A stretch of 51,751 bases of DNA from Armatimonadota bacterium (lineage in GTDB: Bacteria > Armatimonadota > Fimbriimonadia > Fimbriimonadales > Fimbriimonadaceae): NCBI GenBank assembly GCA_029781035.1, contig JAKOXK010000050.1, positions 1 to 51,751 on the forward strand. Direction: 5' to 3'. The position numbers were made by a program, and so were the translations under genes. Shown one piece after another: positions 995 through 43,823 of this stretch. The notes below the pieces were generated by a model. It searched no databases and had not been told where the DNA came from. It worked only from the letters and a program-made list of their open reading frames with translations. Position 1 is the first letter of the stretch; each line of letters begins with the position of its first letter.

Positions 995-2854
995 ATGAAC
1001 AAGACTCGATTCTCGAACGACTTTTCCAAGTTCGTCGTCTTGTGCGGCCTCAGCGCTGGTGTCCTGTTCGCCGGCCCCCCATCGGCCAGAGCCCAAGTGC
1101 AGGGGCTCGCCGAGCGCAACACGTCAAAGAAGTCTGGAGACGACAACGAGTGCGCAATCGCGGCTAATCCGAGGAACAAGGACGAGTTGTTCCTGCTCAG
1201 CAATACGAGTACGAGCGGGCTTTTCGCTGCCCGGAGCACCGATGGTGGCTTGACTTGGACTTATCCAGATCCCTCGGACAAGACGATTGCAGACGGCGAC
1301 GCCAACCAAGGCGCAGCGGCATGCTGCGACCCGACTCTGAGCTGGGACTCGTTCGGCAACCTCTACATCACGTACATCAACAGCGCGGTCAACCAGATCG
1401 TGACGCTGTTGAGCACAGACTCGGGCCAGACGTTCACAACCCTGGCCACATTTGGCCCCGCCAGTGTGGATCAACCCACCGTGGTCTGTGCCGACACCTC
1501 AGCTCCGGGCGCACCCGTCGCCGTCTGGGTCGTATGGAACCAGGGCGGCAGCATGGTGGCACGCGGCGCGGCTGTCACGGGCCTCGGCGTCATCGGCGCT
1601 TTCGGCAACCTCCAGACGATCCCAGGGACTTCAGGATCGAGCTTTGGCGACATCGCGATCGCGCCTGATGGGACGGTCGTCCAAGTCAGCCAGAAGCCGA
1701 CTTCGGGTCAAGGTCCGGGCGTTCTCCTCGTCAACGCGGACGCTGACGGCCTCGGTGCGGGCAACTTCGGTAACCCGGTGACAGCAACATCGACGAACGT
1801 GGGCGGCTTTGACTTCATCCCCGCCCAGAACAGCCGTTCGATCGACGCTGAGGCGGGTCTCGCTTTCGATTGCTGTCCACTGAGCCCCCACTATGGGCGC
1901 CTGTACCTTGTCTACACCGACGAGGTCATCGACGAGAGCAACGATACCGACATTGAGCTGCGTTACTCGGACGACAAGGGCACGACGTGGAGCGCTCCGA
2001 TCCGCGTCAACGACGACTCGACCAACAAGAGCCAGTTCCTGCCCAAGATCGCCGTGAACCCCGCCTCAGGAAACGTCGCCATCTGCTGGCACGACTGCCG
2101 AAATTCAGCAACGAACACCGCGGCCGAGATGTACTCCACCTTTGCCACGCCTGAGGGAGCCGTTCCTGTGCTCCAGCCCAACGTCAAGGTGTCGGGGGGC
2201 GCGTCGATCAGCAACCGGTCCGGCGTCGAGTTCGGTGACTACATGGGCTTGACCTACGTGGGTGGCTATTGGCATCCCGCTTGGGCCGACACATCGAACA
2301 GCACGGGCGACAACCCGAACGGAACGTCCAAGTTCGAGGCCCAGTCGAACAAAGTCACGGGCGGTGCCAACGCCCATGAAGGGACGGAGACGCTGGCTCC
2401 GACTGCAGAGCAGTTCCTGTTGGGAACGTCGAACAGTGGAGGCGACTTGGCCAGTTGGGCAGCGGACGACGGTAATGCGCGCAACAGCTGTAAGTTCATC
2501 CTTCCGAACTCCAGCTCACCGTTCATTCAGGTCCGGCTGACGTTCACGACGTCCAAGACTCACCCCACTGCAGTCTCGTTCAACGTGAAAGTGGCTGTCC
2601 ACAGCACGGGTCCGGAAGCGATCACTTTGCTCGTAGAAGACCGGACGACCAGCACGTTCGTACCAACAAGCGTTAGCCTGGCCGTGAGCAACAACGGTCA
2701 GACCTACCAAGGAACGGCCACGGGCCCGTTTGACCGGTACGTCGACGCCAATGGAGTGATGCGCGGCGAGATCCAAATCAAACAGACGGGCCCTTCGACG
2801 GTCGCACTGCCTTGCTCGAGTTTCGAGTTCGGGCAGATGTCGGTTACGGGTTGA
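995..2854 (+). CDS. Secreted sialidase-like (BNR repeat) protein with C-terminal CKFIVP-type domain
   Basis: 619 residues with a signal peptide ending near PPSARA. The middle is a sialidase-like beta-propeller: Asp-box motifs STDGGLTW, STDSGQTF and SDDKGTTW are visible, plus paired Cys (ACCDP, DCCPLS). No catalytic sialidase Arg triad could be confirmed, so it may only be a glycan-binding or structural propeller. The last 155 residues (about 2390-2851) form the shared domain found in five other proteins here (motif CKFILPNSSSPF, then QTGPS and PCSSF). ATG 995 is preceded by GGAGAAGG; an in-frame GTG at 977 lies upstream. It probably forms an operon with the SNase-like gene. Confidence 0.85.
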   Translation: MNKTRFSNDFSKFVVLCGLSAGVLFAGPPSARAQVQGLAERNTSKKSGDDNECAIAANPRNKDELFLLSNTSTSGLFAARSTDGGLTWTYPDPSDKTIADGDANQGAAACCDPTLSWDSFGNLYITYINSAVNQIVTLLSTDSGQTFTTLATFGPASVDQPTVVCADTSAPGAPVAVWVVWNQGGSMVARGAAVTGLGVIGAFGNLQTIPGTSGSSFGDIAIAPDGTVVQVSQKPTSGQGPGVLLVNADADGLGAGNFGNPVTATSTNVGGFDFIPAQNSRSIDAEAGLAFDCCPLSPHYGRLYLVYTDEVIDESNDTDIELRYSDDKGTTWSAPIRVNDDSTNKSQFLPKIAVNPASGNVAICWHDCRNSATNTAAEMYSTFATPEGAVPVLQPNVKVSGGASISNRSGVEFGDYMGLTYVGGYWHPAWADTSNSTGDNPNGTSKFEAQSNKVTGGANAHEGTETLAPTAEQFLLGTSNSGGDLASWAADDGNARNSCKFILPNSSSPFIQVRLTFTTSKTHPTAVSFNVKVAVHSTGPEAITLLVEDRTTSTFVPTSVSLAVSNNGQTYQGTATGPFDRYVDANGVMRGEIQIKQTGPSTVALPCSSFEFGQMSVTG

Positions 2855-2921
2855 CTTCAATGAGACTTGCGGGCTGTCCATCTGGCAGCCCGCAAGCGTC
2901 TCCGAGCAACGACGACTTTGG

Positions 2922-3911
2922 CTATGAACGCGGCTTTGTGAGGTGGATTCGGAAGGGCTTGTCGCGATCGCAGACCAGTCGGCCCCCCTTCACCTCGAGT
3001 TCGGCGGCTTGGATCGCCGAGTGCCGTGCCGCAAGGGGCATGACGCCATCCTTTTCCGGAAAATCCTGGCCGTAAGGGTGGGTGAAGTAGATGATGGTAG
3101 CCCTTCCGTCACAAACCACAACGTCAGCGTGCTTGCCGATCGTCTGGTCACTGTTGCGCTTTCCCGGCTTGTCAAGGATCTTGCCCTGGTAGGTCCAGTG
3201 CTCCCAATCGGTCGAGACGTAAACATCGAGGCCACTGTTCGGATCCTTGATCAACCATTTCTTGCCCTTAAACTCGAACGCCTTGGGGCCTTCACCGTAC
3301 AGCTTGCTGACTCCTGGGTCTTCCACAGGCTTCCACGTGCGGAGATCGCGGCTGTCCACCGCCTGAGTCTTCGACCCGTGTCCTTCGTCCTTGAACCACA
3401 TCCTCCAGCTTCCATCGGGCCGACGCGCCAACGAGGGGTCGATGCAGTAATCGGACGTCAGAGGTACACGCTGGACAAACCGCCACGTCTTAAGGTCGCT
3501 TGACCGATAGTGGAAGATGAACCGGAAACCGCCCCAGTCGCGATGTTCGGACGCCGGTCCCGGCACATAACTCACGAACATGTGGAACATACCGCCCCGA
3601 TCGCGAATGACGTCTGGTGCCCAGAAAGAGTGGCCGACGTCCGGCGAGGACAAGGGCACGGTCCCCACGTAGCGCCATTCCATGCCTCCGTCCTTGCTTT
3701 CGGCGATGCCGATCTCGGTGCCGTGGCACCAGGACACTCCTGGCTCGTCGGCTTTTGCCCGTCGCTGGGTGTAGAGCATCCACCAGGCACTCCTTTTGGG
3801 GTTCCAGACCAACATGGGATCTGCCGCTCCATCCCAGACTGGATCGCGGAAGAGCGGCGCGGGGGTCAAGGCTTGCGCGGCCAGGAGAACCGTCGCGGAA
3901 AGGAACATCAT
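2922..3911 (-). CDS. Exported GH43-like five-bladed propeller glycosidase
   Basis: 329 residues. A short signal peptide (MMFLSATVLLAAQA) leads into a glycoside-hydrolase-43/32-type propeller. Typical blade motifs are visible: LFRDPVWDGAADPMLVW (Asp-Pro of blade 1), SFWAPDVIRDRGGMFHMFVS (WAPDV), YCIDPSLARRPDGSWRMWF and YGEGPKAFEFKGKKWLIKD (EGP). The product likely acts on plant- or microbe-derived pentose/hexose polymers outside the cytoplasm; substrate cannot be read. The frame is open upstream to 4052, but ATG 3911 gives the signal peptide and lies six bases after a CAGAAT box. Convergent with the sialidase-like gene. Confidence 0.85.
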   Translation of the reverse strand: MMFLSATVLLAAQALTPAPLFRDPVWDGAADPMLVWNPKRSAWWMLYTQRRAKADEPGVSWCHGTEIGIAESKDGGMEWRYVGTVPLSSPDVGHSFWAPDVIRDRGGMFHMFVSYVPGPASEHRDWGGFRFIFHYRSSDLKTWRFVQRVPLTSDYCIDPSLARRPDGSWRMWFKDEGHGSKTQAVDSRDLRTWKPVEDPGVSKLYGEGPKAFEFKGKKWLIKDPNSGLDVYVSTDWEHWTYQGKILDKPGKRNSDQTIGKHADVVVCDGRATIIYFTHPYGQDFPEKDGVMPLAARHSAIQAAELEVKGGRLVCDRDKPFRIHLTKPRS

Positions 3912-3917
3912 GCCTCG

Positions 3918-3923
3918 ATTCTG
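3918..3923 (-). promoter_or_regulatory. -10 box, probable leaderless start at 3911
   Basis: CAGAAT six bases before ATG 3911. It is one of the weaker members of the series because the first base is C rather than T. Confidence 0.35.
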
Positions 3924-4186
3924 CCATGCAAGACCACGCCGTGAGCCCAGGGCCGACCCCAAGTGACGCGACAATTCGCCCCCTTTTCTATGCCAAACAC
4001 CATCGGGCCGCCGGATTCGAATTGGGCCGTTTAGGAGTTTGGAGAGGGACAAGTCGTGTACAGTTTCGTCCGTTACGATTCACAGCGACGGTTTTTGTTA
4101 TCTGAGTTTTGCCATTCCGGCGGTTCACTGACACTTCCCCTCCCTTCCTGAACCGCAACCCACTCCTTGAGGAGAATCCAAAACTT

Positions 4187-4495
4187 ATGGCAAAGAAAAC
4201 ACTCTATGTCGGCAATCTGCCGTACTCAGCCAACGAATCCTCGTTGATGACCTACTTTTCCAACTACGGCGCCTCGAACGCCCGTGTCGTCGAAGGACGC
4301 GGCTTCGGTTTCGTTGACGTCGAAGACGACCAGTTCGATGCGGCTGTCGCCGACAAGCACAACTCGGTCATGGACGGTCGGACGCTGACTGTCAACGAAG
4401 CCCGCCCGCGCGAAGACCGCGGCGGCGGCGGCGGCGGACGGAGCGGTGGCTACGGCGGCGGTCGTTCGTCTGGCGGTCGCGGCGGCCGCTGGTAA
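4187..4495 (+). CDS. RRM-type RNA-binding protein with glycine-rich tail
   Basis: 102 residues. An RNA-recognition motif with RNP2 (LYVGNLPYS, residues about 5-13) and RNP1 (RGFGFVDV) is followed by an Arg/Gly-rich tail (GGGGGGRSGGYGGG...). This is the layout of cyanobacterial Rbp and other bacterial single-RRM proteins, often cold-induced and binding RNA in the cytoplasm. ATG 4187 follows a TTGAGGAGA ribosome-binding site; an upstream in-frame ATG at 4109 was rejected because it lies in the leader and adds no conserved sequence. A strong hairpin follows the stop codon, so the gene is probably transcribed alone. Confidence 0.93.
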   Translation: MAKKTLYVGNLPYSANESSLMTYFSNYGASNARVVEGRGFGFVDVEDDQFDAAVADKHNSVMDGRTLTVNEARPREDRGGGGGGRSGGYGGGRSSGGRGGRW

Positions 4496-4504
4496 GGACT
4501 CTGC

Positions 4505-4540
4505 GCGGTGGCGTGCTCGTCAGAGCACGCCACCGCTTTC
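4505..4540 (+). terminator. Hairpin terminator of the RRM gene
   Basis: A perfect 14-bp stem (4505-4518 with 4523-4536) and a GTCA loop, followed by TTTC, ten bases after the stop codon. The stem is strong but the T tract is short. Confidence 0.75.
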
Positions 4541-4593
4541 ATAGGTGCTCCTCCACAAGGGGATCACCTTCAGTAGGGGACTATCAAGAGCTT

Positions 4594-5169
4594 TTACAGG
4601 TTCTCTCGTTCCGAGTGCGGCTGCCCGTCTCCCATGCGGGATGATGGCCATGGCGGCGAATCCGTGAAGCCGTACATTTCGTTAGGATAGGGTGCTCGGT
4701 ACGTCTGCTCACCGTCGATTCCAAGTTCGAAGTTCAGCACCCAGATTTGGCCGGCTTTGTAGACCGTGTTCTGCCCCATGTGGAAGAGGAACGACCGTAA
4801 GTTCCGCGTTTCGCCATCCCATATCTCTCGCTCCTCAAACAACACCTCGGGAGTAAGACTCTGGATGAGTTGGCGCCATTCCTCCGCCTCCTCTTTGAGC
4901 ATGCGGAGCATCACGCTTCGGTCCGTAGGAAGGTCGGGTGTGGGGCGGTGCAAGTTGCGGTCCAACACGGTCATCTGTTGACGGTCGCACCAAAGCCAGA
5001 CAAAGGTGTGCTCGCAGATTTCGCGCGGTGTGGGTGCGCGCTCAGAAGTGCTCCAGTTCCACTTGTCTTCGGGGATCTGTTCGGCGGCGCGGAGGATGCT
5101 CCCCACAAAGCCGGGAATCATGATCTCGAAGACTTCCAGTTCACTTTGCAGATGTTCCAAATCCGGCAT
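4594..5169 (-). CDS. DinB-like four-helix protein with altered metal ligands
   Basis: 191 residues with the DinB/YfiT fold pattern: helix 1 ending at WNWS, CEHTFVWLW in helix 2 and a final helix with FHMGQNTVYKAGQIWVL. DinB proteins usually bind a metal through one His in helix 2 and two in the last helix (H-x3-H-x-GQ). Here the last-helix positions are H-x3-N-x3-K, so two ligands appear replaced and the protein may not bind metal. GAGGA stands eight bases before ATG 5169. It is one of seven DinB-like genes in the window. Confidence 0.85.
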   Translation of the reverse strand: MPDLEHLQSELEVFEIMIPGFVGSILRAAEQIPEDKWNWSTSERAPTPREICEHTFVWLWCDRQQMTVLDRNLHRPTPDLPTDRSVMLRMLKEEAEEWRQLIQSLTPEVLFEEREIWDGETRNLRSFLFHMGQNTVYKAGQIWVLNFELGIDGEQTYRAPYPNEMYGFTDSPPWPSSRMGDGQPHSERENL

Positions 5170-5288
5170 GGGGTGATTCCTCGATCGCGTCGCGTGCCAG
5201 AACCTTTAGCCCGGTTGAGTTGGCCTTTGGGCGCCGGGCCACTGCCCGGAAGAGCTGTGCAAATGAGACAGTTGCTTGGCCTCAATGC

Positions 5289-5798
5289 TCACTCGATCAG
5301 GCCCCAACTGGAGTTCCTCGGCAGAGCCCAGTCGATATAGTCGGTGTCCACGGTTTCGCCTCCCAGTTCGTCCACCAACATCGCGATCTGTCCACGGTGA
5401 TAGAACGCGTGACCCAACAGCTGAATGATCTGGGCCTCCACTCCTACTCGGAACCTCCCCCACTCGCCCTCATCGATGACAAAGTCGCTCTCCAAGCGAA
5501 GCTGATCGATTGAGGCCAGAAACGCCGACCACTTCTTCTCCATGGCAGCAAAGCGGCCACTGAGAGATTCGAATGCTGCGGACTCCTCCCACCAATCGAC
5601 CCGGTTGTGTCCCTCTGCCGCGATCATGTCGTAGAAGTTCTCCCGGCAAGCACAGAGGTGCGCAGCCAGGTTGACGGCTCGCTGAAACCGAGGGTCGCTC
5701 CTCCGGTCTGCAGGAACCGAGGCGATCATCGCCAACATCTTCGAGTTGCTGTCAACTTCGTGTTCGAAGCTTTCGCGATAGAGGTCGCTGGTCGTCAC
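5289..5798 (-). CDS. DinB-family protein
   Basis: 169 residues. DinB signature: NLAAHLCACRENF in helix 2 and LLGHAFYHRGQIAML in the last helix, giving a complete His triad for a divalent metal. DinB-superfamily enzymes include thiol-dependent S-transferases (bacillithiol/mycothiol type) and many of unknown function; no substrate can be read here. Translation starts with GTG at 5798, immediately downstream of a TAGGGT box with a six-base spacer, so the mRNA is probably leaderless. Confidence 0.88.
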   Translation of the reverse strand: MTTSDLYRESFEHEVDSNSKMLAMIASVPADRRSDPRFQRAVNLAAHLCACRENFYDMIAAEGHNRVDWWEESAAFESLSGRFAAMEKKWSAFLASIDQLRLESDFVIDEGEWGRFRVGVEAQIIQLLGHAFYHRGQIAMLVDELGGETVDTDYIDWALPRNSSWGLIE

Positions 5799-5804
5799 CC
5801 ACCA

Positions 5805-5810
5805 ACCCTA
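5805..5810 (-). promoter_or_regulatory. -10 box, leaderless GTG start at 5798
   Basis: TAGGGT six bases before the GTG start codon, with no ribosome-binding site between them. Confidence 0.55.
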
Positions 5811-5873
5811 CCCAAAACGTGTCCCTTCTTGAACGGGGTTCCGCTGGCCGTTGCGTGGCCAGAGGCCGACGAG

Positions 5874-6548
5874 TCACAGGATTCTTCCTCGCCTGGCTCT
5901 CCTGGCGTACCGGACCAGTTCGGGCCGCGCCACCAAGCCGGAGCTCAAGAAATCGCCGATGGCCTTCGCGACGCGGCCCCTCGCTTCACGATAAATGTGC
6001 ACATGACCTAGCCTGTGCAGTGCCGACTCCTGCACCGTCGCGTTGCGTGACTTGAGGCACAGCCCAATGACTTCGAAGAACAAGTCGTCCTCATGATGAT
6101 CATCGGTCGTCCCTGCTTGGAATCGGTCCACATCCCAACACATGTAACAAGCGGCGTCGAGGCAGGCTGTCTCTGAGCTGTGTTCGCTCTTGTGTCCGAG
6201 GCACCCCGAACAGAGTTTGGCGAACAGGTCCAAGTACAGGGCTTGGAGTGCGCGCCAGGCCCGTATGCGGAGACCGATCGGAAGTCGAGGATCCGCATTG
6301 ACATGGTGCTCCCCCAAGAGAGCGGTGCCGATCTGAGCGACAGAAAAGCGGTCTGCGAGGGGGCCGATCGGGTCTTCCCATGTCCAGACGACATATTCAG
6401 CATAGGTGGCTCGGGTCTCAAAGTGGTCGGCGGGACGGTACCAGGTGTGTGGCCAGTGCTGGTCCGAGGGAGGCTGACCGAACTTGCGGTCGAGCCAATC
6501 CTCAAAAGGCATCACCTCCCGAGGTGCTGGGTACTCCTGGATCCTCAC
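5874..6548 (-). CDS. Hypothetical protein, Cys/His-rich centre, coupled to DinB gene
   Basis: 224 residues, family not recognised. The N-terminal half is rich in aromatic residues (FEDWLDRKFG, YAEYVVWTWEDP). The middle carries CSGC, a Cys and CYMC within about 30 residues plus nearby His, which could bind a metal. The C-terminal part has a HEAT-like helical pattern (ATVQESALHRLGHVHIY) and a basic end. A TTG start at 6566 is possible, but GTG 6548 overlaps the upstream DinB stop by four bases (GTGA), the usual sign of translational coupling, so I chose it. It is probably made from the same mRNA as the DinB gene ending at 6545. Confidence 0.75.
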   Translation of the reverse strand: MRIQEYPAPREVMPFEDWLDRKFGQPPSDQHWPHTWYRPADHFETRATYAEYVVWTWEDPIGPLADRFSVAQIGTALLGEHHVNADPRLPIGLRIRAWRALQALYLDLFAKLCSGCLGHKSEHSSETACLDAACYMCWDVDRFQAGTTDDHHEDDLFFEVIGLCLKSRNATVQESALHRLGHVHIYREARGRVAKAIGDFLSSGLVARPELVRYARRARRGRIL

Positions 6549-7066
6549 ACGTTGCGGTTCGCCCAAAGGTCGTAGAGCATCACCACTTGGCCCCCATGGT
6601 AGGCCTCATGTTGGATGACATGCCCCAACACCCACCGCGGGGTGCGCGACATACCGTTTCGTTCAACCAAGGTCGCGGGTGGGGGCCACTGTCGGATCCT
6701 CTCCAAAGACCTTGAGCGCACACGGTCAAAGAGGTCGAAGTACCACTGAATCGGTTGTGCAGGAGGATCGGGCCAACGCCCTTCGTCCACGTCGATCTCG
6801 TCCCAAAGAAGTGTCCTCTTGTCCTCGTCGCTCGGGCGTTGGCCGAGGACAAAGCACTCGAACCAGAAGATCTCCACGATGACCATGTGGAGGAGAATCG
6901 CTCCGATCGACTGGCCGCCGGGCCGAGGTCGCCACGCGGTGACGTCTGGACCGATCTCGGCTCCCCAGAGTTCGCCTCGCCAGTCGCTCGTTCCGTCTTG
7001 AAGGACTGCGCAGAGGAGGCCGTAGGGTTCGGGGTACCCGGGCAACGGTTCGACGTCGTTTGCCAT
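6545..7066 (-). CDS. DinB-family protein
   Basis: 173 residues. Helix 2 has ILLHMVIVEIFWFE and the final helix VLGHVIQHEAYHGGQVVML, containing the complete DinB metal triad. The frame stays open upstream to 7141, but ATG 7066 is favoured by a TATCCT box seven bases upstream and because the family N-terminus starts here. The stop codon overlaps the GTG of the next gene. Confidence 0.9.
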   Translation of the reverse strand: MANDVEPLPGYPEPYGLLCAVLQDGTSDWRGELWGAEIGPDVTAWRPRPGGQSIGAILLHMVIVEIFWFECFVLGQRPSDEDKRTLLWDEIDVDEGRWPDPPAQPIQWYFDLFDRVRSRSLERIRQWPPPATLVERNGMSRTPRWVLGHVIQHEAYHGGQVVMLYDLWANRNV

Positions 7067-7073
7067 GAACGAC

Positions 7074-7079
7074 AGGATA
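7074..7079 (-). promoter_or_regulatory. -10 box, leaderless start at 7066
   Basis: TATCCT seven bases before ATG 7066. It decides between this ATG and the upstream in-frame start at 7141. Confidence 0.55.
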
Positions 7080-7209
7080 GCAGTTGCTTGCCTGCAGTCA
7101 CACACCTGCCGCACAGGGTCTGACGACGAGTGGAATCGCATGGGTCGTAGACCTTTCGGCTCCGATTGACGTAGACTCGTTCGAGATTCCTCGCGGAACG
7201 AAAACGCCC

Positions 7210-7713
7210 ATGAAGTCCTCCCTCGTACTCACCCTCTTGTTCGGCGTCGGTGTTGGCGCGGGAACCGCGCTCCAGCCGCTGGCACGAGAGCTCCCCGCGT
7301 TGCTCCAGGCACAGACTCAGTTGGACAACGACGGACTCAAGCAGATGCTCGACGGCCTCGGCTATGAGACGAAACCGCTCAGCAAGGGATTCCTGATCGC
7401 GGAGCAACTTGACGACTGGACAATCAACACACAGGTCGTGTTGAGCGGTGATGGAAACAAGGTCGGGCTCAACGCCAACCTGGGCGAAGTGACCGACCCT
7501 GACGCAGTCTCCGCGCTCCAATGGCGCAGTCTGCTCGTAGCCAACGGCAATATCGATCCGTCTGCTTTCTACTTCGACACCGATCGTAAGAAGCTGTACC
7601 TTCACCGGTCATTCGACAACCGAGGGTTGACGGCGTCCATCCTCAAGAAGGAGATTCAGAACTTCACGAAGAACGTGAAGGACACCGGTGACCTGTGGAA
7701 GTTCACGAAGTGA
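7210..7713 (+). CDS. Exported YbjN-like protein
   Basis: 167 residues: a signal peptide (SLVLTLLFGVGVGAGTA) then a small alpha/beta domain starting LKQMLDGLGYETKPL, with strands FLIAEQLDDWTINTQVVLSGDGNKVGLNANL and a helical end LKKEIQNFTKNV. The pattern of a 'difficult-to-measure' helix then four strands resembles YbjN / type-III-chaperone-like domains; that is a fold-level guess. ATG 7210 was chosen for the signal peptide; the frame extends upstream to 7084 without coding character. It appears monocistronic. Confidence 0.75.
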   Translation: MKSSLVLTLLFGVGVGAGTALQPLARELPALLQAQTQLDNDGLKQMLDGLGYETKPLSKGFLIAEQLDDWTINTQVVLSGDGNKVGLNANLGEVTDPDAVSALQWRSLLVANGNIDPSAFYFDTDRKKLYLHRSFDNRGLTASILKKEIQNFTKNVKDTGDLWKFTK

Positions 7714-7792
7714 ACGGACGGGTTCCGAGAGTCTGACGGTTCCGTGTCTTGGCTGGATGACGGTCTGCCACACTTGGTGCAGTTGGTGAATT

Positions 7793-8656
7793 ATGGGGCT
7801 CGTACTTCCCTTGCTTGTAGCATTTGTTGTCTCGCCCGCGCGAGCGCAGGCCGACCCCTACGCTGCCGACATCGCGGCCTTCAAGAAGCAAGACGCTGAA
7901 CATCCACCCGCCAAAGGGCAGATCGTCTTCATCGGCAGCTCCTCGTTCACACGGTGGACCAAAGTTAGAGAGGCCTTTCCAAGCCACACGATCCTCAACC
8001 GGGCCTTTGGCGGATCCGCACTGCCGGACCTCACCAAGCACCTCGACGATGTCGTCTTCCCGTATGCACCTCGGCAGGTGGTCGTCTACTGCGGTGAGAA
8101 CGACTTCGCATACGACGCCATGTTGACAGCGCCCGATGTTGTGGCCCGATTCAACGACCTCTACCGACGTGTCCGCGCCCGGCTGCCAGACGCTCAGTTC
8201 ACGTACGTGTCGATGAAACCGAGCCCGAGCCGGTGGAGCCTGGCCCCGAAATTCCGCGCCGCTAACGCAGCCATTGAGAAGTTCCTGTCCCACGAGAGCC
8301 GCGCGTCGTTCGTCGACGTCTGGCCCGTCATGCTCGGTGCCGACGGACAGCCTATACCGGATATCTTCGTCAGCGACAAGCTACACATGAACGACAAGGG
8401 ATACGAACTCTGGATCCCGTTGATCGAAAAAGTGCTTGTCAAAGAGAGATCTCTGAAGCACTTGGAGGACGTGACGGTGGATCGTTCGCCACTTGGAACG
8501 ACTACGCCGTCAGCTCAGGCGCTTGAAGGTTTTGGCTGGTGGATCCGAGCTTCGCGCCAGAGACGCTGGACGAGTTCGCCCGCGCTGGGAACATCGTGGA
8601 TGTCTGTGCAACCCGTGCCACAGTACATGGGCAATTCTTCGACCCGTCCCTCGTAA
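7793..8656 (+). CDS. Exported SGNH/GDSL hydrolase with run-on C-terminus
   Basis: 287 residues. Signal peptide, then SGNH blocks: FIGSSSFTRW (nucleophile Ser), FGGSALPDL, GENDFAYD (block III Asn/Asp) and DKLHMNDKGYELW (catalytic Asp and His). Such enzymes cleave acyl or acetyl esters, often on sugars. Homologues normally end soon after the D-x-x-H helix (here near IPLIEKVLV, about 8440). The remaining 65-70 residues are unlike the family and run 142 bases antisense into the nitronate monooxygenase gene, which suggests loss of the original stop codon. Confidence 0.85.
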   Translation: MGLVLPLLVAFVVSPARAQADPYAADIAAFKKQDAEHPPAKGQIVFIGSSSFTRWTKVREAFPSHTILNRAFGGSALPDLTKHLDDVVFPYAPRQVVVYCGENDFAYDAMLTAPDVVARFNDLYRRVRARLPDAQFTYVSMKPSPSRWSLAPKFRAANAAIEKFLSHESRASFVDVWPVMLGADGQPIPDIFVSDKLHMNDKGYELWIPLIEKVLVKERSLKHLEDVTVDRSPLGTTTPSAQALEGFGWWIRASRQRRWTSSPALGTSWMSVQPVPQYMGNSSTRPS

Positions 8657-24021: not shown

Positions 24022-24396
24022 CTACGCTTTGGCGAAGGCGTCAGCGCTGATCACCTCGAGCGCCACAAACGGTACGTCGCCCTCGACCCAAGCATCATGG
24101 CCAGGCGGAATCGTGTACGATTCGCCGGCAGTGATCGTCTTCTGAAGGCCGTCCTGCATCTGAACCGTGATGCGTCCCGAAAGGGCATAGCCCACATGCG
24201 AGAGTTGGCAGTGATCGGTGTTGACCACGGGCTGGATGCAGTCCGACCATCTCCAACCGGGCTCAAAAGTGAACCGGCCTATCGTAAAGCCCTCGAGCTG
24301 GACGATTTCAACGCGGGTCTTGCTGGGAGTCCTGACCTCATCGGGTGTATCGTGTGACCTCGATTGAAGCCGGACGACGCTGACTGGCATGGGCAT
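24022..24396 (-). CDS. Cupin-domain protein
   Basis: 124 residues, a single cupin barrel: IGRFTFEPGWRWSDCIQPV, CQLSHVGYALSGRITVQMQDG (motif 1 with metal-ligand-like His) and ITAGESYTIPPGHDAWVEGDVPFVALEV (motif 2, GHDAW). Similar small cupins bind a metal and act as sugar- or acid-modifying enzymes or as sensors; no specific role can be read. AGGAAAC precedes ATG 24396; ATG 24390 is an alternative. Confidence 0.88.
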   Translation of the reverse strand: MPMPVSVVRLQSRSHDTPDEVRTPSKTRVEIVQLEGFTIGRFTFEPGWRWSDCIQPVVNTDHCQLSHVGYALSGRITVQMQDGLQKTITAGESYTIPPGHDAWVEGDVPFVALEVISADAFAKA

Positions 24397-24591
24397 GGTT
24401 GTTTCCTGCGCTCAGCCGAAAACCGCGAGATTCGGCGGCTTGGCAAAGCTGCCTATAAAAGTCTCCATTGGCGCCACGAGTTCCAAGCATCCGTGAAAGG
24501 GGCGATCTCCTTCAGCCGACGCTGCACGACGCTGAGCGGTGTTGGCCATCCTCAGCACACTCTTAATGCCGTCTTCCTTCCATTTAGTTGT

Positions 24592-24597
24592 TATAAT
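24592..24597 (+). promoter_or_regulatory. -10 box, leaderless start at 24604
   Basis: A perfect TATAAT, six-base spacer (GCTGGG), ATG 24604. It excludes the much longer upstream frame that opens at 24364. Confidence 0.65.
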
Positions 24598-24603
24598 GCT
24601 GGG

Positions 24604-34880: not shown

Positions 34881-36455
34881 TCACTGAATCGCGTACACGT
34901 AGTGGTCGTTCGACCCTATGTATACCGTCCCATCCGCGCCGATGGCGGGAGAGGCGTTCACGATGAATCCGGTCTGGAACTTCCACTTCATGGCCCCGGT
35001 CGCGCCATCCAGAGCGTAGACGTAATCGTCCCACGACCCCATGTAGACGGTCCCGTCCGCCCCGACGGCGGGTGAATCACCCCTATAGGAGCCGGTATAG
35101 AACTTCCACTTCATTGCCCCGGTCGCGCCGTCCAGCGCGTAGAGGTATTGGTCGTTCGACCCTACGTAGACCGTCCCGTCCACGCCGATGGCGGGCGAGG
35201 ACACTACCCACTGGCTCGTCTGGAACTTCCACTTCATTGCCCCGGTCGCGCCGTCCAGCGCGTAGACGTTGCCGTCGTACGACCCGACGTAGACGGTCCC
35301 GTCGGCGCCGACAGCAGGCGAGGAGATCACGTACCAGCCGGTCAGGAACGACCACTTCTCCGACCCAGTCGCGCCGTCCAGCGCGTATACGCAGTAGTCC
35401 GTGGATCCAATGTAGACGGTCCCGTCCGTGCCGATGGCGGGCGAGGAGTCTATGTAGAAGCCGGTATGGAACTCCCACTTCATGGCCCCAGTCGCGCCGT
35501 CCAGTGCGTAGACATAGCCGTTTGTCGAGCCGACGTAGACCGTCCCGTCTGCGGCGACGGCGGGCGAGGAGCGGACACCATCACCAATCCTGAACTTCCA
35601 CTTCACGTCCCCGGTCGCGCCATTCAGAGCGTAGACGTAATAGTCTTCCGATCCTATATAGACGGTGCCGTCCGCGCCGATGGCTGGCGAGGATTCCACA
35701 AGATAGCCGGTCTTGAACGCCCACTTCTCACCCCCAGTCGCGCCGTCCAGCGCGTAGACGTAGTCGTCGTCGGACCCTACATAGACGGTGCCGTCCGCGC
35801 CGATGGCTGGCGAGGAATCCGCTACGTCGCCGGTCTTGAACTTCCACTTCAGTGCCCCAGTCGCCCCCTGCCCGACGCCGAGGCCGGTGTTCCGACTGTC
35901 GTGGTGAAACTTCGGCCATGCTGAGTCTGCGAGCCCGCCAACGGTCAAGCCGAGCTCGACGACCTCGAACTTCGTGCACGGGGCGGCGCTAGAGGAAGGG
36001 CCCGTTTGCCGAACCTCGAGCTCGCACTGCATCACGCCGCCTGGCCCGACGTATTCGGCCGGCGTGCCGGGCGCCTGGCCGGCGAAGGTCTGCCACGCGG
36101 TGCCAATGCCCGTGTCACGGATTACGAGGACGTCCGAGGCCGTCGCGTAGTCATGGACGAAACCGCGCGCCTTGAACGAGCCTGACGTCGCCATCTCGGC
36201 TTTGAAGACCAGCTCGACCGAGGCAGGATTCACAGTTGTCGCTACGAAGCCCAGAGTCAGGCGCACAAACGGGCTGCTTTGGTTCGGGACTATGAATTTA
36301 CAGACGGTCTCGGCGTCGTTGTCGTCGGATCCTAGGCTGTGCAGATTTCCGCTTACCACCTTGCCCAAGTTGACCGACTGTGAGACAGGTACGACGATTT
36401 CGGCACAAGCGGACAAGCCCGCCGACACCAGGATCAAGACTGCGAGGGCCCTCAT
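34881..36455 (-). CDS. CKFIVP-type domain followed by eight-bladed PQQ-like propeller (probable lipoprotein)
   Basis: 524 residues. Signal sequence VLILVSAGLSAC fits a lipobox (L-S-A-C). The shared domain comes first here (about 35938-36401): VNLGKVVSGNLHSLGSDDND, CKFIVPNQSSPFVRL, YVGPGGVMQCELEVRQTGPS and PCTKFEVVELGL. Eight nearly identical repeats of 41 residues follow (WKFKTG...SSPAIGADGTVYVGS...YVYALDGATG), a PQQ/BamB-like propeller; their 123-bp DNA repeats point to recent amplification. AAGGTGAGG precedes ATG 36455. It is the only copy with the shared domain at the N-terminus. Confidence 0.9.
   Translation of the reverse strand: MRALAVLILVSAGLSACAEIVVPVSQSVNLGKVVSGNLHSLGSDDNDAETVCKFIVPNQSSPFVRLTLGFVATTVNPASVELVFKAEMATSGSFKARGFVHDYATASDVLVIRDTGIGTAWQTFAGQAPGTPAEYVGPGGVMQCELEVRQTGPSSSAAPCTKFEVVELGLTVGGLADSAWPKFHHDSRNTGLGVGQGATGALKWKFKTGDVADSSPAIGADGTVYVGSDDDYVYALDGATGGEKWAFKTGYLVESSPAIGADGTVYIGSEDYYVYALNGATGDVKWKFRIGDGVRSSPAVAADGTVYVGSTNGYVYALDGATGAMKWEFHTGFYIDSSPAIGTDGTVYIGSTDYCVYALDGATGSEKWSFLTGWYVISSPAVGADGTVYVGSYDGNVYALDGATGAMKWKFQTSQWVVSSPAIGVDGTVYVGSNDQYLYALDGATGAMKWKFYTGSYRGDSPAVGADGTVYMGSWDDYVYALDGATGAMKWKFQTGFIVNASPAIGADGTVYIGSNDHYVYAIQ
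34884..35867 (-). repeat. Eight tandem 123-bp repeats coding propeller blades
   Basis: The period is 123 bases (41 codons); for example TTCCACTTCA recurs at 34981 and 35104. Blades differ mainly in the six residues after WKFxTG and around YVGS, which suggests selection on loop positions. Confidence 0.85.
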
Positions 36456-36604: not shown

Positions 36605-36607
36605 GGA

Positions 36608-37108
36608 CTACCACCTGTCACGCCCGAGGAAAGGGCACCCCGCCGACGACCACAGGTATTCCTCGGGGCGGGCCACCAAGCCTCTCCTGACCGGGTTCTC
36701 CTCGATGTAGTCGAGCTTTTCGTGGAACTCCCTGTCCGAGTGGATGTTCCGGTCGTAGCCCTTCCCCGGCTGCCAGAAGTGGGCCGGTGCCCGGCCCTCG
36801 GTCTGCCTGATCCGCTCCAAGGCCTTTGTCGAAGCGCGGCCCTTCAAGGCCGAGAGGATCCGCGGGACTTTGGCGACCGCGAGGTCGGGATCGAGCAGGA
36901 GGTGGACGTGTTCCGGCATCGCGACCCAGGCATAGAGACGAAAGCCAAGCCGGTCCCTTGTGAGCGCCAGGTGTTCGGCGAAGAGGTCCCTTGCCCACTC
37001 CGGATCTAGGAGCGGCTTACGCTGGAAGCACGAAAACGTGAGGAAGCGCGCCTCACCAGGCGTTTCGAACCGCCTCGGTCTGGACCTCTCGCTCTCCCTT
37101 TGCACAGT
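36608..37108 (-). CDS. REP-associated tyrosine transposase (RAYT, Y1_Tnp family)
   Basis: 166 residues, usual RAYT length. ARFLTFSCFQRKPLL is the first strand, MPEHVHLLL holds the HUH metal-binding pair (here His-Val-His), and EKLDYIEENPVRRGLV the catalytic Tyr with the family's ENPVRRGLV motif, ending WSSA. These single-stranded-DNA nucleases bind REP hairpins and are thought to spread them. The start is taken as GTG 37108, since the open frame upstream overlaps the inner REP sequence. The gene is bracketed by two REP pairs. Confidence 0.9.
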   Translation of the reverse strand, partial: TVQRESERSRPRRFETPGEARFLTFSCFQRKPLLDPEWARDLFAEHLALTRDRLGFRLYAWVAMPEHVHLLLDPDLAVAKVPRILSALKGRASTKALERIRQTEGRAPAHFWQPGKGYDRNIHSDREFHEKLDYIEENPVRRGLVARPEEYLWSSAGCPFLGRDRW

Positions 37109-37126
37109 GGGATTCTGGCACGGGCG

Positions 37127-37203
37127 GTTTCCGGTCTGCCACTCTGCGTGGACGGCCAACGTCTGTCGCGGTCTCTCGTGGCCAGACCGGGGCACCCGGC
37201 GGG
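37127..37203. repeat. Right REP pair of the RAYT locus
   Basis: CCGGTCTGCCAC (37131-37142) and GTGGCCAGACCGG (37178-37190) in inverted orientation, mirror image of the left pair. Confidence 0.85.
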
Positions 37204-37354
37204 CTCAGTTCTGAGTCCTGCAGGATTCGGCGCGTCTTCGTCGGGTGCGCGAACAATCTCATTCATTTGGCGAGAGTCCTGCGGACCCCGGCTAACCCGA
37301 GCCACCCAATGGGACGTGATCCTTAGTCCTTCCACCCGCCGGGACGCCCGGCGC

Positions 37355-37936
37355 TTAGCTGAATGTCTCGAGAACTTCGCTGGCTAGGGTTCGCATCGCC
37401 GCGAAGACACGCGTTTCGGAGTTCGGCGGGGGCGGGTCATCACGAGTGTACGTGACTGAATGCACAACGGAGTTGGTGCTCACATATTGGGGGCTGGACT
37501 GTGGATCAACGTGCGCCCCGCCCTCCTGGTCGGCCACTGTTCGCGTCAATTCCTGACGAGTCCAGGTGTCGAAGTGGCCGCCTGGCAACATGACGCCAAG
37601 AGAAAACTGCTCGCACTGCCACCAGTCTCTTCGATCAACAAGGGCTCGATCTGTCGATCTAAGGGGTAAGCCACCTACATCAATGACTCTAAGTTTGCCT
37701 TCATGACGAGTCGAGCAAATCCTCTCGTACTTGACGCCATCTGCGGGGTATGCCAACGTGAGTTGGCCCAGAAGTGAACAACTGTTGCCCCCAGAGTCAT
37801 GAAACAAGATCCGCAAGTGCGTAGCCATGCTCTTGGCCGTGAAGAACTGGCCTCGATCATAGTTTTCGCAGTCGAGTAGAAGGGATGTCAGTTGCTCACC
37901 TAACTCCCTCTTCAACTGATCGGGACTCTTAATCAT
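37355..37936 (-). CDS. Hypothetical protein
   Basis: 193 residues, family not recognised. The N-terminal 50 residues are helical (DQLKRELGEQLTSLLLDCENYDRGQFFTAKSMATHLRILFHD), followed by a beta-rich middle (RVIDVGGLPLRST, FSLGVMLPGGHFDTWTRQEL) and a short helical end. Its base composition is lower in GC than its neighbours, and it sits between the RAYT element and groEL, so it may be an acquired gene. The start is ATG 37936; no ribosome-binding site is clear. Confidence 0.6.
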   Translation of the reverse strand: MIKSPDQLKRELGEQLTSLLLDCENYDRGQFFTAKSMATHLRILFHDSGGNSCSLLGQLTLAYPADGVKYERICSTRHEGKLRVIDVGGLPLRSTDRALVDRRDWWQCEQFSLGVMLPGGHFDTWTRQELTRTVADQEGGAHVDPQSSPQYVSTNSVVHSVTYTRDDPPPPNSETRVFAAMRTLASEVLETFS

Positions 37937-37952
37937 ATCAGTGGATCAGGGT

Positions 37953-38000
37953 CACCCCTTCTCCTTGGGCGATGGTTCATGCGCCGAGGGAGAAGGGGTG
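37953..38000. repeat. Inverted repeat between groEL and the hypothetical gene
   Basis: CACCCCTTCTCC (37953-37964) pairs perfectly with GGAGAAGGGGTG (37989-38000), with partial pairing continuing into the loop. It probably marks the end of the groEL transcription unit together with the hairpin at 38034. Confidence 0.65.
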
Positions 38001-38033
38001 AGGGGATGAGGGTTTCGGATCTCCACCCCCAAA

Positions 38034-38072
38034 CCCCCTCCTCATCAGCACGGACATCTGACGAGGAGGGGG
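38034..38072 (-). terminator. Hairpin after groEL
   Basis: CCCCCTCCTC (38034-38043) pairs with GAGGAGGGGG (38063-38072), with TCAG/CTGA pairing further inside. It lies ten bases downstream of the groEL stop codon. Confidence 0.6.
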
Positions 38073-38081
38073 GATCGGACT

Positions 38082-40503
<2,422 letters not shown>

Positions 40504-40535
40504 CCTTACCTCTTCACAACCATCACAATCCTCAC

Positions 40536-40826
40536 TTACTTCAGGATCGCGTAGATCTGGTCTTCGTCGAGGATCGTGAAGTCTTTGCCGTCGAGGGTGA
40601 CCTCGTTGCCGCCGTACTTGCTGAAGAGCACGCGGTCGCCGGCTTTGACGCTGAGTTTGTTGCGTTTGCCGTCGTCGAGGACGCGGCCGTCGCCGACGGC
40701 GACGACTTTGCCTTCGGTCGGCTTCTTCTTAGCGCTGTCGGGGAGGATGATGCCGCCAGCGGTCTTCTCTTCCGCTTCGAGCACTTCCACCACGACCTTG
40801 TCTCCGAGTGGTTTGATGTTCGCCAT
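40536..40826 (-). CDS. groES: 10-kDa co-chaperonin GroES
   Basis: 96 residues: [44 protein letters not shown], then [36 protein letters not shown], the complete GroES barrel with its mobile loop ([11 protein letters not shown]). It caps GroEL. AGGAAGGAAA precedes ATG 40826. First gene of the groES - insert - groEL unit, behind two CIRCE-like sites. Confidence 0.97.
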
Positions 40827-40889
40827 AGTTTCCTTCCTGTGGACGGCGGACCCTGCACGCCGGGCTGCTGGCGAAGCCGTGACCCCCGG

Positions 40890-40916
40890 TTAGCAGTCCC
40901 CGCCTGACAGTGCCAA
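40890..40916. promoter_or_regulatory. CIRCE-like HrcA operator, proximal copy
   Basis: TTAGCAGTC-N9-CAGTGCCAA. Against the CIRCE consensus TTAGCACTC-N9-GAGTGCTAA it matches 8 of 9 and 7 of 9. It lies directly downstream of the -10 box, over the probable transcription start. Confidence 0.7.
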
Positions 40917-40921
40917 TTATG
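40916..40921 (-). promoter_or_regulatory. -10 box of the groES operon
   Basis: CATAAT on the minus strand between the two CIRCE-like sites, giving a leader of about 80 bases. Confidence 0.5.
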
Positions 40922-40941
40922 CCCCGTTCCCTTGCGAGTGG

Positions 40942-40968
40942 TTAGCAGAGATGGGACCAGAGTGCTAA
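40942..40968. promoter_or_regulatory. CIRCE-like HrcA operator, distal copy
   Basis: TTAGCAGAG-N9-GAGTGCTAA; the right arm is a perfect CIRCE half-site and the left matches 6 of 9. Its centre is 52 bases from that of the proximal copy. Confidence 0.75.
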
Positions 40969-41026
40969 TTCTGCACGAGCCGTGGACTTGCAGACACGCC
41001 TCTGGCCCTGACCGGTTCCGGGGCAC

Positions 41027-42490
41027 TCAGGGCCGAGTGACGAACTGCGCGCAGTCGAGGACGGCGCACCACAGCGAGCTTCCCACGGGTCCGGTGGCCT
41101 TAACCCGGAAGCGGGCGCGCAGGGCGCGTTCAGGGCCGACGTAGCGCGACAGATCTCCCGTAGCCTGGAGTTCGACTGTCTTGAACGAGGTGTTGAGCGT
41201 GTCCGTCCGCGTGTCTGCGTAAGACGATGACGACCAGTCGTACAGGTCGACGGTCTGGGACAAGACGCCCGACGTGTTGACTTTGCTGACCAACCGGATG
41301 AAGTAGTTGGACGGAGTCTGGACGGGGGACAGTGCGTCGAGCTCGACGGTGACCGGGGCCGCCTGTTGGTTGGGAACCAGGAACTTGCAGACGGTGAGGC
41401 CGTTGCCATCGGCCGCTTCGAGGCTCTGCAACCCGCCTTCGGTCGCCTTACCGAGCAACACATTGACCTTGGTCGGTGTGACAACCGGAGTCGCGATGAA
41501 GCCATGGGTCTTGCCGTCAATAAGTCCCGAGCCTACGATCTGTCCGAAACGGTTGGAGGACGTTGCGAGTTGCAGGGTCCAACCTGGGGTGGACGGATCG
41601 ACGAGGGCGTTGAGGTCGACAACGCCGTCGAGCGCGTTGAAGAGCGTGGCCCGTTCGTAGTCGCTGTCATAGGCCGCGCCGACGAGGGTGCTGCCGTCGT
41701 GGGTCGCCCAGACACAGTCCATCGACGGGTACCCGGAGAGTTGGTCTTCCTGGGTGAAGCGACCCGTCGTGGTCCAGGATCCCGCAATGTAGGTTCCGTC
41801 TGACAGCCCGACGTATCCGCAGATCCGGTCCTCGTCAGTGATCAGGTTTGGGAACGAAAGGACTCCACCCTGTGGCTTGGCCAGATAGCCGCCGGTGCCG
41901 TTCTTCCAGAATGCGGCGAAGTCACCGCTCCAGCCGCAGACAATCCCGCTGTTGCTGATGTCGCAAAACCCGCACTCGCTGTCTCCAGCGAGCGGTTGGT
42001 ACACCGTGAACCCCGCGGTCGCCGACCACGTGAAGCCGCGGCGTCCGTTGGCCGTTTGACCCCAGCCCGCGATCACGCCGTGGTCATTACCTGCGTCGGC
42101 GATGGCCCAGGTCATCCCTGCGGGCACGCCAACATCGGTCAACTGATTCTGGGACGACCAACGCACGGGGTGACCGTCGGTCAGTGGATCGATGGTGTAG
42201 GCGACCCCGGTGATGTTCCCCAGGCTGTCGATCGTGCCGCTGTTCGCTTGAGTGAAGCCGGCCAGCAGGGGCAAGGGCGTCAGCCCTTGTGAAGAGGTCC
42301 AGCGAAACGGGACCGAGCCGTTCGCCCCGGTACCGACGCCAGAAACCACGCCGTTGTCGTTGATGTCTTGGGCAAAGCTGAAATCGGCGCCGCCGGGAAG
42401 GTCGCCAACGTCCGTGATCGAATAGGTGTGGAACGCGATCGCCGAGGGGCAAGCCCAGGCCATGGCAACGAGCATTGCTAGACGATTCAT
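41027..42490 (-). CDS. Secreted HAF-repeat protein with CKFIVP-type domain
   Basis: 487 residues. Signal peptide (LAMLVAMAWACPSAIA), then repeats of the extracellular HAF type: YSITDVGDLPGG, FAQDINDNGVVSGVG, DAGNDHGVIAGWGQTANG and SNRFGQIVGSGLIDGKTHGFIATP. From about 41480 the shared domain follows: VNVLLGKATEGGLQSLEAAD, CKFLVPNQQAAPVTVEL, RYVGPERALRARFRVKATGP and WCAVLDCAQF; it has an extra Cys and lacks the S-P pair. GAGAGGA precedes ATG 42490. Divergent from another protein with the shared domain. Confidence 0.88.
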   Translation of the reverse strand: MNRLAMLVAMAWACPSAIAFHTYSITDVGDLPGGADFSFAQDINDNGVVSGVGTGANGSVPFRWTSSQGLTPLPLLAGFTQANSGTIDSLGNITGVAYTIDPLTDGHPVRWSSQNQLTDVGVPAGMTWAIADAGNDHGVIAGWGQTANGRRGFTWSATAGFTVYQPLAGDSECGFCDISNSGIVCGWSGDFAAFWKNGTGGYLAKPQGGVLSFPNLITDEDRICGYVGLSDGTYIAGSWTTTGRFTQEDQLSGYPSMDCVWATHDGSTLVGAAYDSDYERATLFNALDGVVDLNALVDPSTPGWTLQLATSSNRFGQIVGSGLIDGKTHGFIATPVVTPTKVNVLLGKATEGGLQSLEAADGNGLTVCKFLVPNQQAAPVTVELDALSPVQTPSNYFIRLVSKVNTSGVLSQTVDLYDWSSSSYADTRTDTLNTSFKTVELQATGDLSRYVGPERALRARFRVKATGPVGSSLWCAVLDCAQFVTRP

Positions 42491-42689
42491 AGATTGTCCT
42501 CTCTGGGATGAGTGCCCCCTAATGGTGGGCGCACCCGCAAATCTACCGCATCAAGTACACGTTGACGCAAACGGGCATCTCTTGAGCGATTGACTGGATT
42601 TTTGCTCCTCCTGCGTGCACACAGGCTCGTGACGGCTCCGGGTGGCGTACGAAGAGAGTAGAGCGCAGTGGCACATTGCGCAGGGTGAC

Positions 42690-43823
42690 ATGATGTTTGA
42701 GAGGACATGGGCAGCAACAACCTGCTTGGCTCTGAGCGCGGCTACCTTTGGCGCTATCGACAACTTGGGTGCGGACTTCAGCGACGTCAACAACCCGAAC
42801 GGCGTGTGGCGCCTTGAGAAGAACACCGACCAACAGCTGTTTTCGATCGTTCAGCCGGACTACTATTCGAACCAGACGTACCAAGTAGCGTGGGCGGACG
42901 AGCCTTATCCCGCTCAAATGCACGTTCCCTTTTGGTGCCGGGTGACAACTCTGGACATGCCCTTTGGGCCATACGACGTGGCCCTTGGCGACATCTTGAT
43001 GCACGGGTCGGTCTTTTCACGTACTGGAGCGACGACCACGTCTGCGGTATGGGTCAGTCCCGTCAATGGCACGGCGGACATTGCCGGTTCGACTTGGATG
43101 ATCGCTCGGCGCGGCCGGGTCATGGACTGGGAGATATGGAGGAACAACGTCAAGCAGACCAGTGGACGCCTGTACGAGGACGGGACGAACTCTCGGGTCA
43201 ACCCGTTCCTCTTCCAAAACGGCTCGGGGGGCTTGTTCGCGCTGACACAGCCTGTTGCTGTGGGCGATCGCCTGGAACTCCGGTTTCAGTCTTTGGACGA
43301 ACTGCCGGACATGGCCGGTGTCAACTTCGAAGTCGCGTCGATGGCCGGAGTCTCGACCGACGTCCTCGCGCCGGTCTCAGAGCAGGTGATGTTGGGCACG
43401 TCGTCCGGAGGTGGCAATCTGGCGAGTTGGGCGAACGATGATGAGGACGTCCGTCGAGTCTGCAAGTTCATCGTCCCGTCCGCCACGTCGCCCTATCTGC
43501 GGGTCAACCTGAACTTTGCGTCCACGAAGCTCTCGCCGTCCAGGGTCATCCTCGGGGTTCAAGCGCGATCGACAGTTGTTGGCGCCTTTAAGCTACGGCT
43601 CAGCCTTCAGAGGAAGACCGACAGCGCCTACATCCAGGTGTTGGAAGAAGCTCTTGGCGCCACTTGGCGGACGTACACGTCCATCCCGGAAGGTGTTTTG
43701 TCAGATTTTGTCGCCCCCTCGGGAACGATGACTGAGCGCCTTGAAGTGTTCCAGACAGGGCCAAGCGCTGCGAGCATTCCTTGTAGCGAATTCGACTTTG
43801 CGGACATCAAGGTGTCGCAATGA
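42690..43823 (+). CDS. Secreted protein: unknown N-domain plus CKFIVP-type domain
   Basis: 377 residues. Signal peptide (FERTWAATTCLALSAATFGA). The N-terminal 220 residues are beta-rich, unrecognised (VWRLEKNTDQQLFSIVQ, GSTWMIARRGRVMDWEIWRN, VAVGDRLELRFQSLDELPD). The shared domain starts near 43360: VMLGTSSGGGNLASWANDDED, CKFIVPSATSPYLRV, EGVLSDFVAPSGTMTERLEV, QTGPS and PCSEFDFADIKV. AGGGTG precedes ATG 42690. It is most like the domain of the sialidase-like protein at 995. Confidence 0.85.
   Translation: MMFERTWAATTCLALSAATFGAIDNLGADFSDVNNPNGVWRLEKNTDQQLFSIVQPDYYSNQTYQVAWADEPYPAQMHVPFWCRVTTLDMPFGPYDVALGDILMHGSVFSRTGATTTSAVWVSPVNGTADIAGSTWMIARRGRVMDWEIWRNNVKQTSGRLYEDGTNSRVNPFLFQNGSGGLFALTQPVAVGDRLELRFQSLDELPDMAGVNFEVASMAGVSTDVLAPVSEQVMLGTSSGGGNLASWANDDEDVRRVCKFIVPSATSPYLRVNLNFASTKLSPSRVILGVQARSTVVGAFKLRLSLQRKTDSAYIQVLEEALGATWRTYTSIPEGVLSDFVAPSGTMTERLEVFQTGPSAASIPCSEFDFADIKVSQ

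Follow-up and report, generated by a model that had tools for sequence, protein, structure and literature searches.

A C-terminal domain shared by many exported proteins of an Armatimonadota bacterium and its possible role in surface attachment

Many exported proteins of a member of the Armatimonadota (family Fimbriimonadaceae; assembly GCA_029781035.1) end in the same domain of about 150 residues. We describe this domain from a window of 51,751 nucleotides, the whole stretch analysed (contig JAKOXK010000050.1), in which six proteins carry a copy. The domain is typically the last part of its host protein, is predicted to fold into a beta-sandwich shaped like a carbohydrate-binding module (CBM), and in several genes is nearly identical in DNA sequence on otherwise unrelated passengers. 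We propose, with moderate confidence, that the domain is a non-covalent, probably glycan-binding module for surface attachment. The kind of module is known (PF14741-like or CBM-like); what is new is a strongly expanded variant with a pair of cysteines, here called the Cys-type.

Results

Six copies in the window and their relatives in other genomes

The six copies all lie in open frames and align over 156 columns, 13 of which are invariant, including C34, K35, F36, P39, G134, P135 and C142. In this alignment, the other copies are 27-36% identical to the first. An earlier note, made from the DNA sequence, had claimed six alignable copies in six proteins. This is confirmed far beyond chance: a single copy searched against the six frames of its own genome finds the other five at E-values of 2.9e-13 to 1.7e-30. 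A profile of the six copies finds its own six at 4.8e-63 to 5.6e-67, values to be read with the fact that it was built from these same copies. Our coordinates agree with those of the note within a few bases, except that its start at 43360 is out of frame and is replaced by 43362.

Within the own genome, the single-copy search returns 36 matches (E up to 1) and the profile built from all six copies returns 47 (E up to 0.1). Among the latter, four (C90, C89, C68 and C29) are 3' pieces lying at the end of a contig, and four other genes (C18b, C92, C36 and C9) leave their contig within or just after the domain. If pieces and contig-cut genes belong together, the genome holds 43 genes with the domain, a count that we infer from pieces left unjoined. 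With the same profile, three congeners show 60, 49 and 51 matches, G010 and G013 37 each, and G027 34. At E up to 0.01, the profile matches 36 of 61 genomes, the own genome included, and finds nothing in 12 of the 14 genomes of one family (code f2). In a sample of 251 genomes from across the phylum, an alignment of 51 diverse members has matches (E up to 0.001) in 71; about 15 candidates were scored per genome, which makes the per-genome counts lower bounds. A scan of a contig collection (84,980 species by its description) for the CKF pattern, whose list may leave out near relatives of the own genome, returned 12 pattern matches. Five of these could be confirmed; their records bear the names Chthonomonadaceae, Armatimonadetes or Fimbriimonadaceae bacterium. 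One genome of 1.5 Mb that is 97% complete (G031) matches neither the domain nor PEP-CTERM, and its exported repertoire may be reduced.

The passengers are diverse. At E up to 1e-4, Pfam recognizes Peptidase_S8 in five of the 43 proteins and Pro-kumamolisin, Sortilin-Vps10, BNR_2 and BNR in two each; PQQ, FG-GAP, HpiC1-like, Laminin_G_3, Kelch and other modules occur singly, and many passengers have no match. A signal peptide is called in 37 of the 43 by a crude test (ATG start plus hydrophobic stretch), and one of the remaining six has no 5' end in its contig.

Predicted fold and the cysteine pair

AlphaFold2, given the copy at 25195 and 12 relatives, predicts ten strands with a predicted local distance difference test score (pLDDT) of 94.4 and a predicted template modelling score (pTM) of 0.89. 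The beta-sandwich that the earlier note had envisaged is thus seen in the predicted model, and likewise in that of L071, a relative without the cysteines (pLDDT 87.9, same strand order, same leading structure matches); both predictions drew on the same 13 places and are not independent. Foldseek and VIA-align were used for comparison with known structures, including the CBMs that the note had suggested. The best VIA-align match is a baseplate protein of phage phi812 (Z 13.6, 141 residues aligned, 2.9 Å), followed by the carbohydrate-binding region of a Bacillus mannanase (Z 11.9, 131 aligned, 2.9 Å). CBM4, alginate-binding, CBM61 and CBM16 modules come next (Z 9.8-10.9, 121-139 residues aligned). 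Many CBMs stand at Z 9.4-10.9, and the predicted fold is matched over its whole length.

The leading match to a baseplate protein raises the question of protein-protein docking, in which copies would bind each other or a scaffold to form a multi-enzyme sheet or fibre. In one passenger family, described below, a dockerin-like tail replaces the domain, as docking would also have it. Against this, most listed fold neighbours are CBMs or enzymes that carry them, and we consider docking, weighed without any scaffold or cohesin search, to be quite unlikely.

Cysteines 34 and 142 are both present in 27 of the 51 diverse members and both absent in the other 24, and no member has a single one; these are counts of sequences, many of them related, rather than of independent events. 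The note's claim of two linked cysteines therefore holds for their co-occurrence. Since the two occur together or not at all, a Cys34-Cys142 disulfide is likely, as judged from sequence. Within the 27 Cys-type members, K35 is kept in 26 and F36, P39, G134 and P135 in all. All 51 members have G12 and G18, and an acidic residue (D or E) at position 146. A likely disulfide, together with passengers that have no common function, would also suit a passive cap that helps exported proteins to fold or stay stable, has no ligand and is spread by neutral recombination. The near-invariance of the CKFIVP loop in the Cys-type (K in 26 of 27, F and P in 27 of 27) is more than a cap seems to need, and an exported protein made of the domain alone exists. 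We regard such a cap as very unlikely.

Relation to named families

No Pfam or NCBIfam model scores above its cut-off inside the domain, in either the six full proteins or the six domains. In particular, PF14741 (GH114_assoc) does not match the window copies at E up to 10 or at its gathering cut-off of 22 bits. Among the 51 members, however, it matches 11 at E up to 1, with a best score of 21.6 bits, just below that cut-off. In six member alignments that we inspected, all from relatives, the domain keeps a lead of 11-15 residues over the profile along the whole alignment, and about 55-77 of the 126 profile positions are covered; in L073, positions 10-121 of 126 are covered. A search of 41 genomes with PF14741 gives 28 matches in 15 genomes; the seven above the cut-off, in six genomes, all fall inside the domain. 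Relatives that score above the cut-off include L076, which has a full Cys-type sequence (23.3 bits), L073 (28.4) and L072 (33.4). Conversely, the 51-row model finds the same protein in all 20 loci taken from PF14741 matches (E 7e-55 to 4e-7). Because relatives pass the PF14741 cut-off and the domain model finds the same proteins, the domain is, at the level of sequence comparison, a distant arm of the PF14741 superfamily whose window copies fail its membership score. The note had called the family apparently unnamed and had held that a significant match to a described domain would speak against it. The first statement stands for the window copies, and a match of that sort exists for relatives, at the same place in the domain. 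PF14741 differs in that its family name speaks of an N-terminal, GH114-associated domain, whereas the present one is C-terminal, rides on passengers other than GH114 and has the Cys pair and the CKFIVP loop. The 43 proteins match 18 families at E up to 1e-4, and GH114 is not one of them.

Other candidate families were rejected. A Pfam scan of the 51 members for CBM sequence families gives CBM_35 as the best match, in one member at E 0.14, which is not credible. LecB/PA-IIL (PF07472) reaches 13.8 bits against a cut-off of 21 in one of the 51 members and E 0.25 in a profile search of the PDB, which we treat as chance; it is not among the 50 rows listed in either structure comparison. An SRPBCC protein, the best match of the 51-member profile among PDB sequences (E 0.0042 over 55 residues), is not credible either. 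The open-licence PMC literature contains nothing on GH114_assoc or PF14741, and no title among the matches listed concerns this domain.

The domain occupies the C-terminal slot

Forty genes of the own genome have their 3' end within a contig, and in 37 of them the domain ends 0-3 residues before the stop codon. In two diverged genes, the match stops 19 and 22 residues short of the end, and by eye the domain there reaches the C-terminus of the protein. The remaining gene is the PQQ propeller gene of the window, with an N-terminal domain. In four relatives, all 79 of the best-scoring listed proteins, which are not a random sample, end within 0-4 residues of the domain. Another 48 loci were examined, at least five of them repeats of a gene already counted, and in 46 the protein stops no more than 6 residues after the domain. 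The exceptions, L138 and L139 (family code f2), continue for 58 more residues with a duplicated GDxNGDG...DDADLL-type motif, which we read by motif, without a Pfam scan, as a dockerin-like tail.

The passenger family TIGR04312, 'choice-of-anchor B', permits a closer look at this slot. In choice-of-anchor families, as the name implies, the C-terminal anchor varies. One own-genome passenger belongs to this family (3.8e-93), which has 32 matches above cut-off in 23 of the 61 genomes. Of 30 such loci, 27 end their main frame in the domain (two are cut by a contig end and one is at E 7.7e-4), two end in a dockerin-like tail and one is unclear. The two tails match Dockerin_1 at E 0.0072 and 0.0019, both below the cut-off. 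One comes from a genome without any domain match (G026) and the other from a genome with some (G017). The C-termini of L236 and L245 are dockerin-like tails, and in armatimonads such tails follow the domain or replace it.

These positions call for weighing a C-terminal sorting domain, which an outer-membrane export or attachment machine would read, and perhaps cleave, like the C-terminal domain (CTD) of the type IX secretion system (T9SS). The domain lies 0-4 residues from the stop in 79 of 79 proteins of relatives and 0-3 in 37 of 40 own genes, serves dozens of cargo families and takes the C-terminal slot of choice-of-anchor B proteins, all as a sorting signal would. Nevertheless, the domain needs no free C-terminus: it is N-terminal once and is followed by the dockerin-like pair twice. 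In addition, L107 is a signal peptide plus the domain alone in a frame of 192 residues. The fold also differs: the model of the domain has ten strands in about 150 residues, and a study of P. intermedia (PMC11969387) gives T9SS CTDs 40-82 residues and at most 4+3 strands. SprA_N and PorV have no match in the own genome, but the control genomes gave none either, so this negative does not count as absence. Sorting is the main rival to surface attachment. The fold speaks against it, as do the N-terminal case, the proteins with a dockerin-like tail and the one made of the domain alone, and we judge it unlikely.

The note had found five window copies C-terminal and one directly after a signal sequence, as do we, and had argued from the latter that the domain is movable. 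That argument is thin: a search of 10 relatives found no stop-free match running from the domain into a propeller, and we read the N-terminal PQQ case as a local fusion that looks like a singleton. The movable module itself is upheld, chiefly by the DNA copies described below and also by the two dockerin-tailed relatives.

PEP-CTERM occurs at 29 places in the own genome, all on other proteins. None of the own domain proteins with a 3' end in the contig, the PQQ case aside, has such an ending; they stop within or just after the domain. The idea that, within this genome, homologous passengers carry either the domain or PEP-CTERM is not supported: comparison of 42 passengers with the 29 PEP-CTERM proteins gives four matches at E up to 0.01, the best at 0.004 and none over 64 residues. 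A complementary distribution was rejected, as PEP-CTERM is found in 60 of 61 genomes whether the domain is present or not.

Apparent copying of the domain between genes

In five own genes (C18a, C18b, C9, C36 and C92), the domain DNA is 93.7-98.8% identical over 247-456 aligned bases, gaps excluded. C18a and C9 contain the whole domain, and C18b, C36 and C92 run off their contigs. Their passengers show no mutual blastp match at E up to 1e-4. The similarity begins in linker codons for (S)TTE, about 9-15 bases ahead of the domain, and ends at, or a few bases from, the stop codon in C18a and four contig-end pieces; as an exception, C18a and C68 also have the following terminator-like stretch in common. 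Third codon positions in near-identical pairs are 88-99% identical, more than purifying selection acting on the protein would account for by itself. Since near-identical domain DNA stands on unrelated passengers and starts in the linker, the domain seems, on this sequence evidence, to be copied as a module from gene to gene, probably by recombination. A diversity-generating retroelement was rejected, as the near-identical copies differ at all base types and not at adenines alone.

The assembly itself bears traces of these repeats. Eight of 196 contig ends (C9, C18, C29, C36, C68, C89, C90 and C92 of the own genome, G000) lie within the domain or at its end, where 1.2 would be expected (binomial P 4e-5), an excess that near-identical repeats on different genes would cause. 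The own assembly is fragmented, and among the five near-identical genes only C18a has both flanks in its contig. In better assembled relatives (G003, G001, G013 and G010), pairs without passenger similarity reach 78-83% identity; the higher pairs, at 85% (G003) and 94% (G001), have related passengers. A FastTree tree of 114 domains, whose rows were chosen by score, has 43 genome-label changes versus 64.4 in shuffles (as low in 0 of 200); for G001 and G010 singly, clustering is not clear, with 94 and 51 of 500 shuffles giving values as low. The copies cluster by genome more than chance, yet are far from one clade per genome. Two loci, L093 and L120 (contigs C18 and C43 of G000), probably the two Pro-kumamolisin proteins, have passengers that are 45% identical, one with a typical and one with a strongly diverged domain, which suggests domain replacement.

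The six host proteins in the window

The modules of the window are listed in the table below. The BNR_2, HpiC1-like and PQQ partners, which the earlier note had called a sialidase-like propeller, a DUF642-like module and a PQQ propeller, score above the Pfam cut-off. Its two modules without a known family have no match, and its HAF repeats are weakly matched. This HAF-like passenger matches two further own-genome passengers in blastp (1e-11 and 6e-11). The frame of the HpiC1-like protein opens upstream of a likely Met at about 24604; with its HpiC1-like module and the domain, this protein is a tandem of two modules of similar predicted fold. The blades of the PQQ propeller recur every 123 bases with about 75-78% DNA identity, which suggests recent amplification.

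Table. Domain copies and passenger modules in the window
Feature	Position	Strand	Remarks
Signal peptide and sialidase-like (BNR_2) beta-propeller passenger	977..2389	+	Open reading frame (ORF) 977-2854; PF13088, E 8.9e-8
Domain copy 1, C-terminal	2390..2851	+	Cys codons 2489-2491 and 2813-2815
Passenger with HpiC1-like module	24364..25194	+	PF22825, E 1e-15, ORF residues 109-271
Domain copy 2, C-terminal	25195..25653	+	First row of the structure prediction
Signal peptide and passenger without Pfam match (E up to 1)	25978..26571	+	
Domain copy 3, C-terminal	26572..27024	+	
PQQ-type propeller with near-repeat blades, C-terminal of copy 4	34884..35939	-	PF13570, E 1.1e-71
Domain copy 4, directly after the signal peptide (N-terminal exception)	35940..36398	-	
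Domain copy 5, C-terminal	41030..41485	-	
Signal peptide and HAF-repeat-like passenger	41486..42490	-	TIGR02913, E 0.71 (weak)
Signal peptide and passenger without Pfam match (E up to 1)	42642..43361	+	
Domain copy 6, C-terminal	43362..43820	+	

Discussion

We propose that a disulfide-locked, CBM-shaped beta-sandwich of about 150 residues, appended C-terminally to many exported proteins, would bind these passengers non-covalently to a single common target. That target would most likely be a polysaccharide belonging to the surface or matrix of the cell itself. The passengers so tagged would be proteases, propellers, lectin-like and unidentified modules. A candidate for the conserved site is the CKFIVPxQ loop, which the disulfide would connect with the QTGPS...PC loop. 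Recombination would place copies of the coding segment at the 3' ends of new genes and so let the organism bring any exported protein to the same surface. The overall interpretation of the earlier note, which had the domain link diverse proteins to one surface ligand or matrix, is partly supported.

Several points weigh against this proposal. The fold alone points to a glycan, and sharing a fold does not reveal a function. The same comparisons also list HpiC1 cyclases, meprin, reelin, an intraflagellar transport subunit and Cry toxins at Z 9-10, with HpiC1 cyclases, meprin and the transport subunit at 9.4-10.3. Few passengers are evident carbohydrate-active enzymes. The extreme C-terminal position is stricter than is usual for CBMs; it would also fit a sorting signal, which explains the C-terminal rule better than a tether does.

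Comparison with known systems helps to place the domain. Beta-sandwich CBMs (CBM4, 16, 22, 61 and others) resemble it in predicted whole-length fold (Z about 9.4-11.9) and are likewise appended to other modules. They differ in sequence (4-13% identity, no credible Pfam CBM match) and in copy number, and the Pfam-matched passengers of the domain are largely proteases and propellers. T9SS CTDs, PEP-CTERM and dockerins are C-terminal modules common to many unrelated exported proteins. PEP-CTERM, unlike the domain, is a short tail of PEP motif, hydrophobic helix and basic end, and is found here on other proteins; dockerin-like tails consist of short calcium-loop repeats. In P. gingivalis, identical adhesin-module DNA is reported to lie in the different surface-protein genes HagA, RgpA and Kgp and to break assemblies (PMC5266723). 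The present case is alike in its near-identical module DNA across genes for surface or exported proteins and in its assembly breaks. It differs in that a few pathogen genes with repeated internal modules are concerned there and dozens of genes with a terminal module here.

A bolder version of surface attachment is a lineage-specific display code, in which the domain would be the general non-covalent anchor of this armatimonad group, would recognize one dedicated cell-surface glycan and would still be pasted onto 3' ends. We put this forward tentatively, as a possible but rather doubtful extension.

Armatimonadota are poorly studied experimentally. If surface attachment is the function of the domain, it would give this phylum a defined surface-attachment system, would provide an annotation for dozens of exported proteins per genome that are otherwise unexplained, and would enlarge an obscure Pfam family, PF14741, to a major module. 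Domain DNA that is nearly the same on unrelated genes would be domain shuffling caught in progress.

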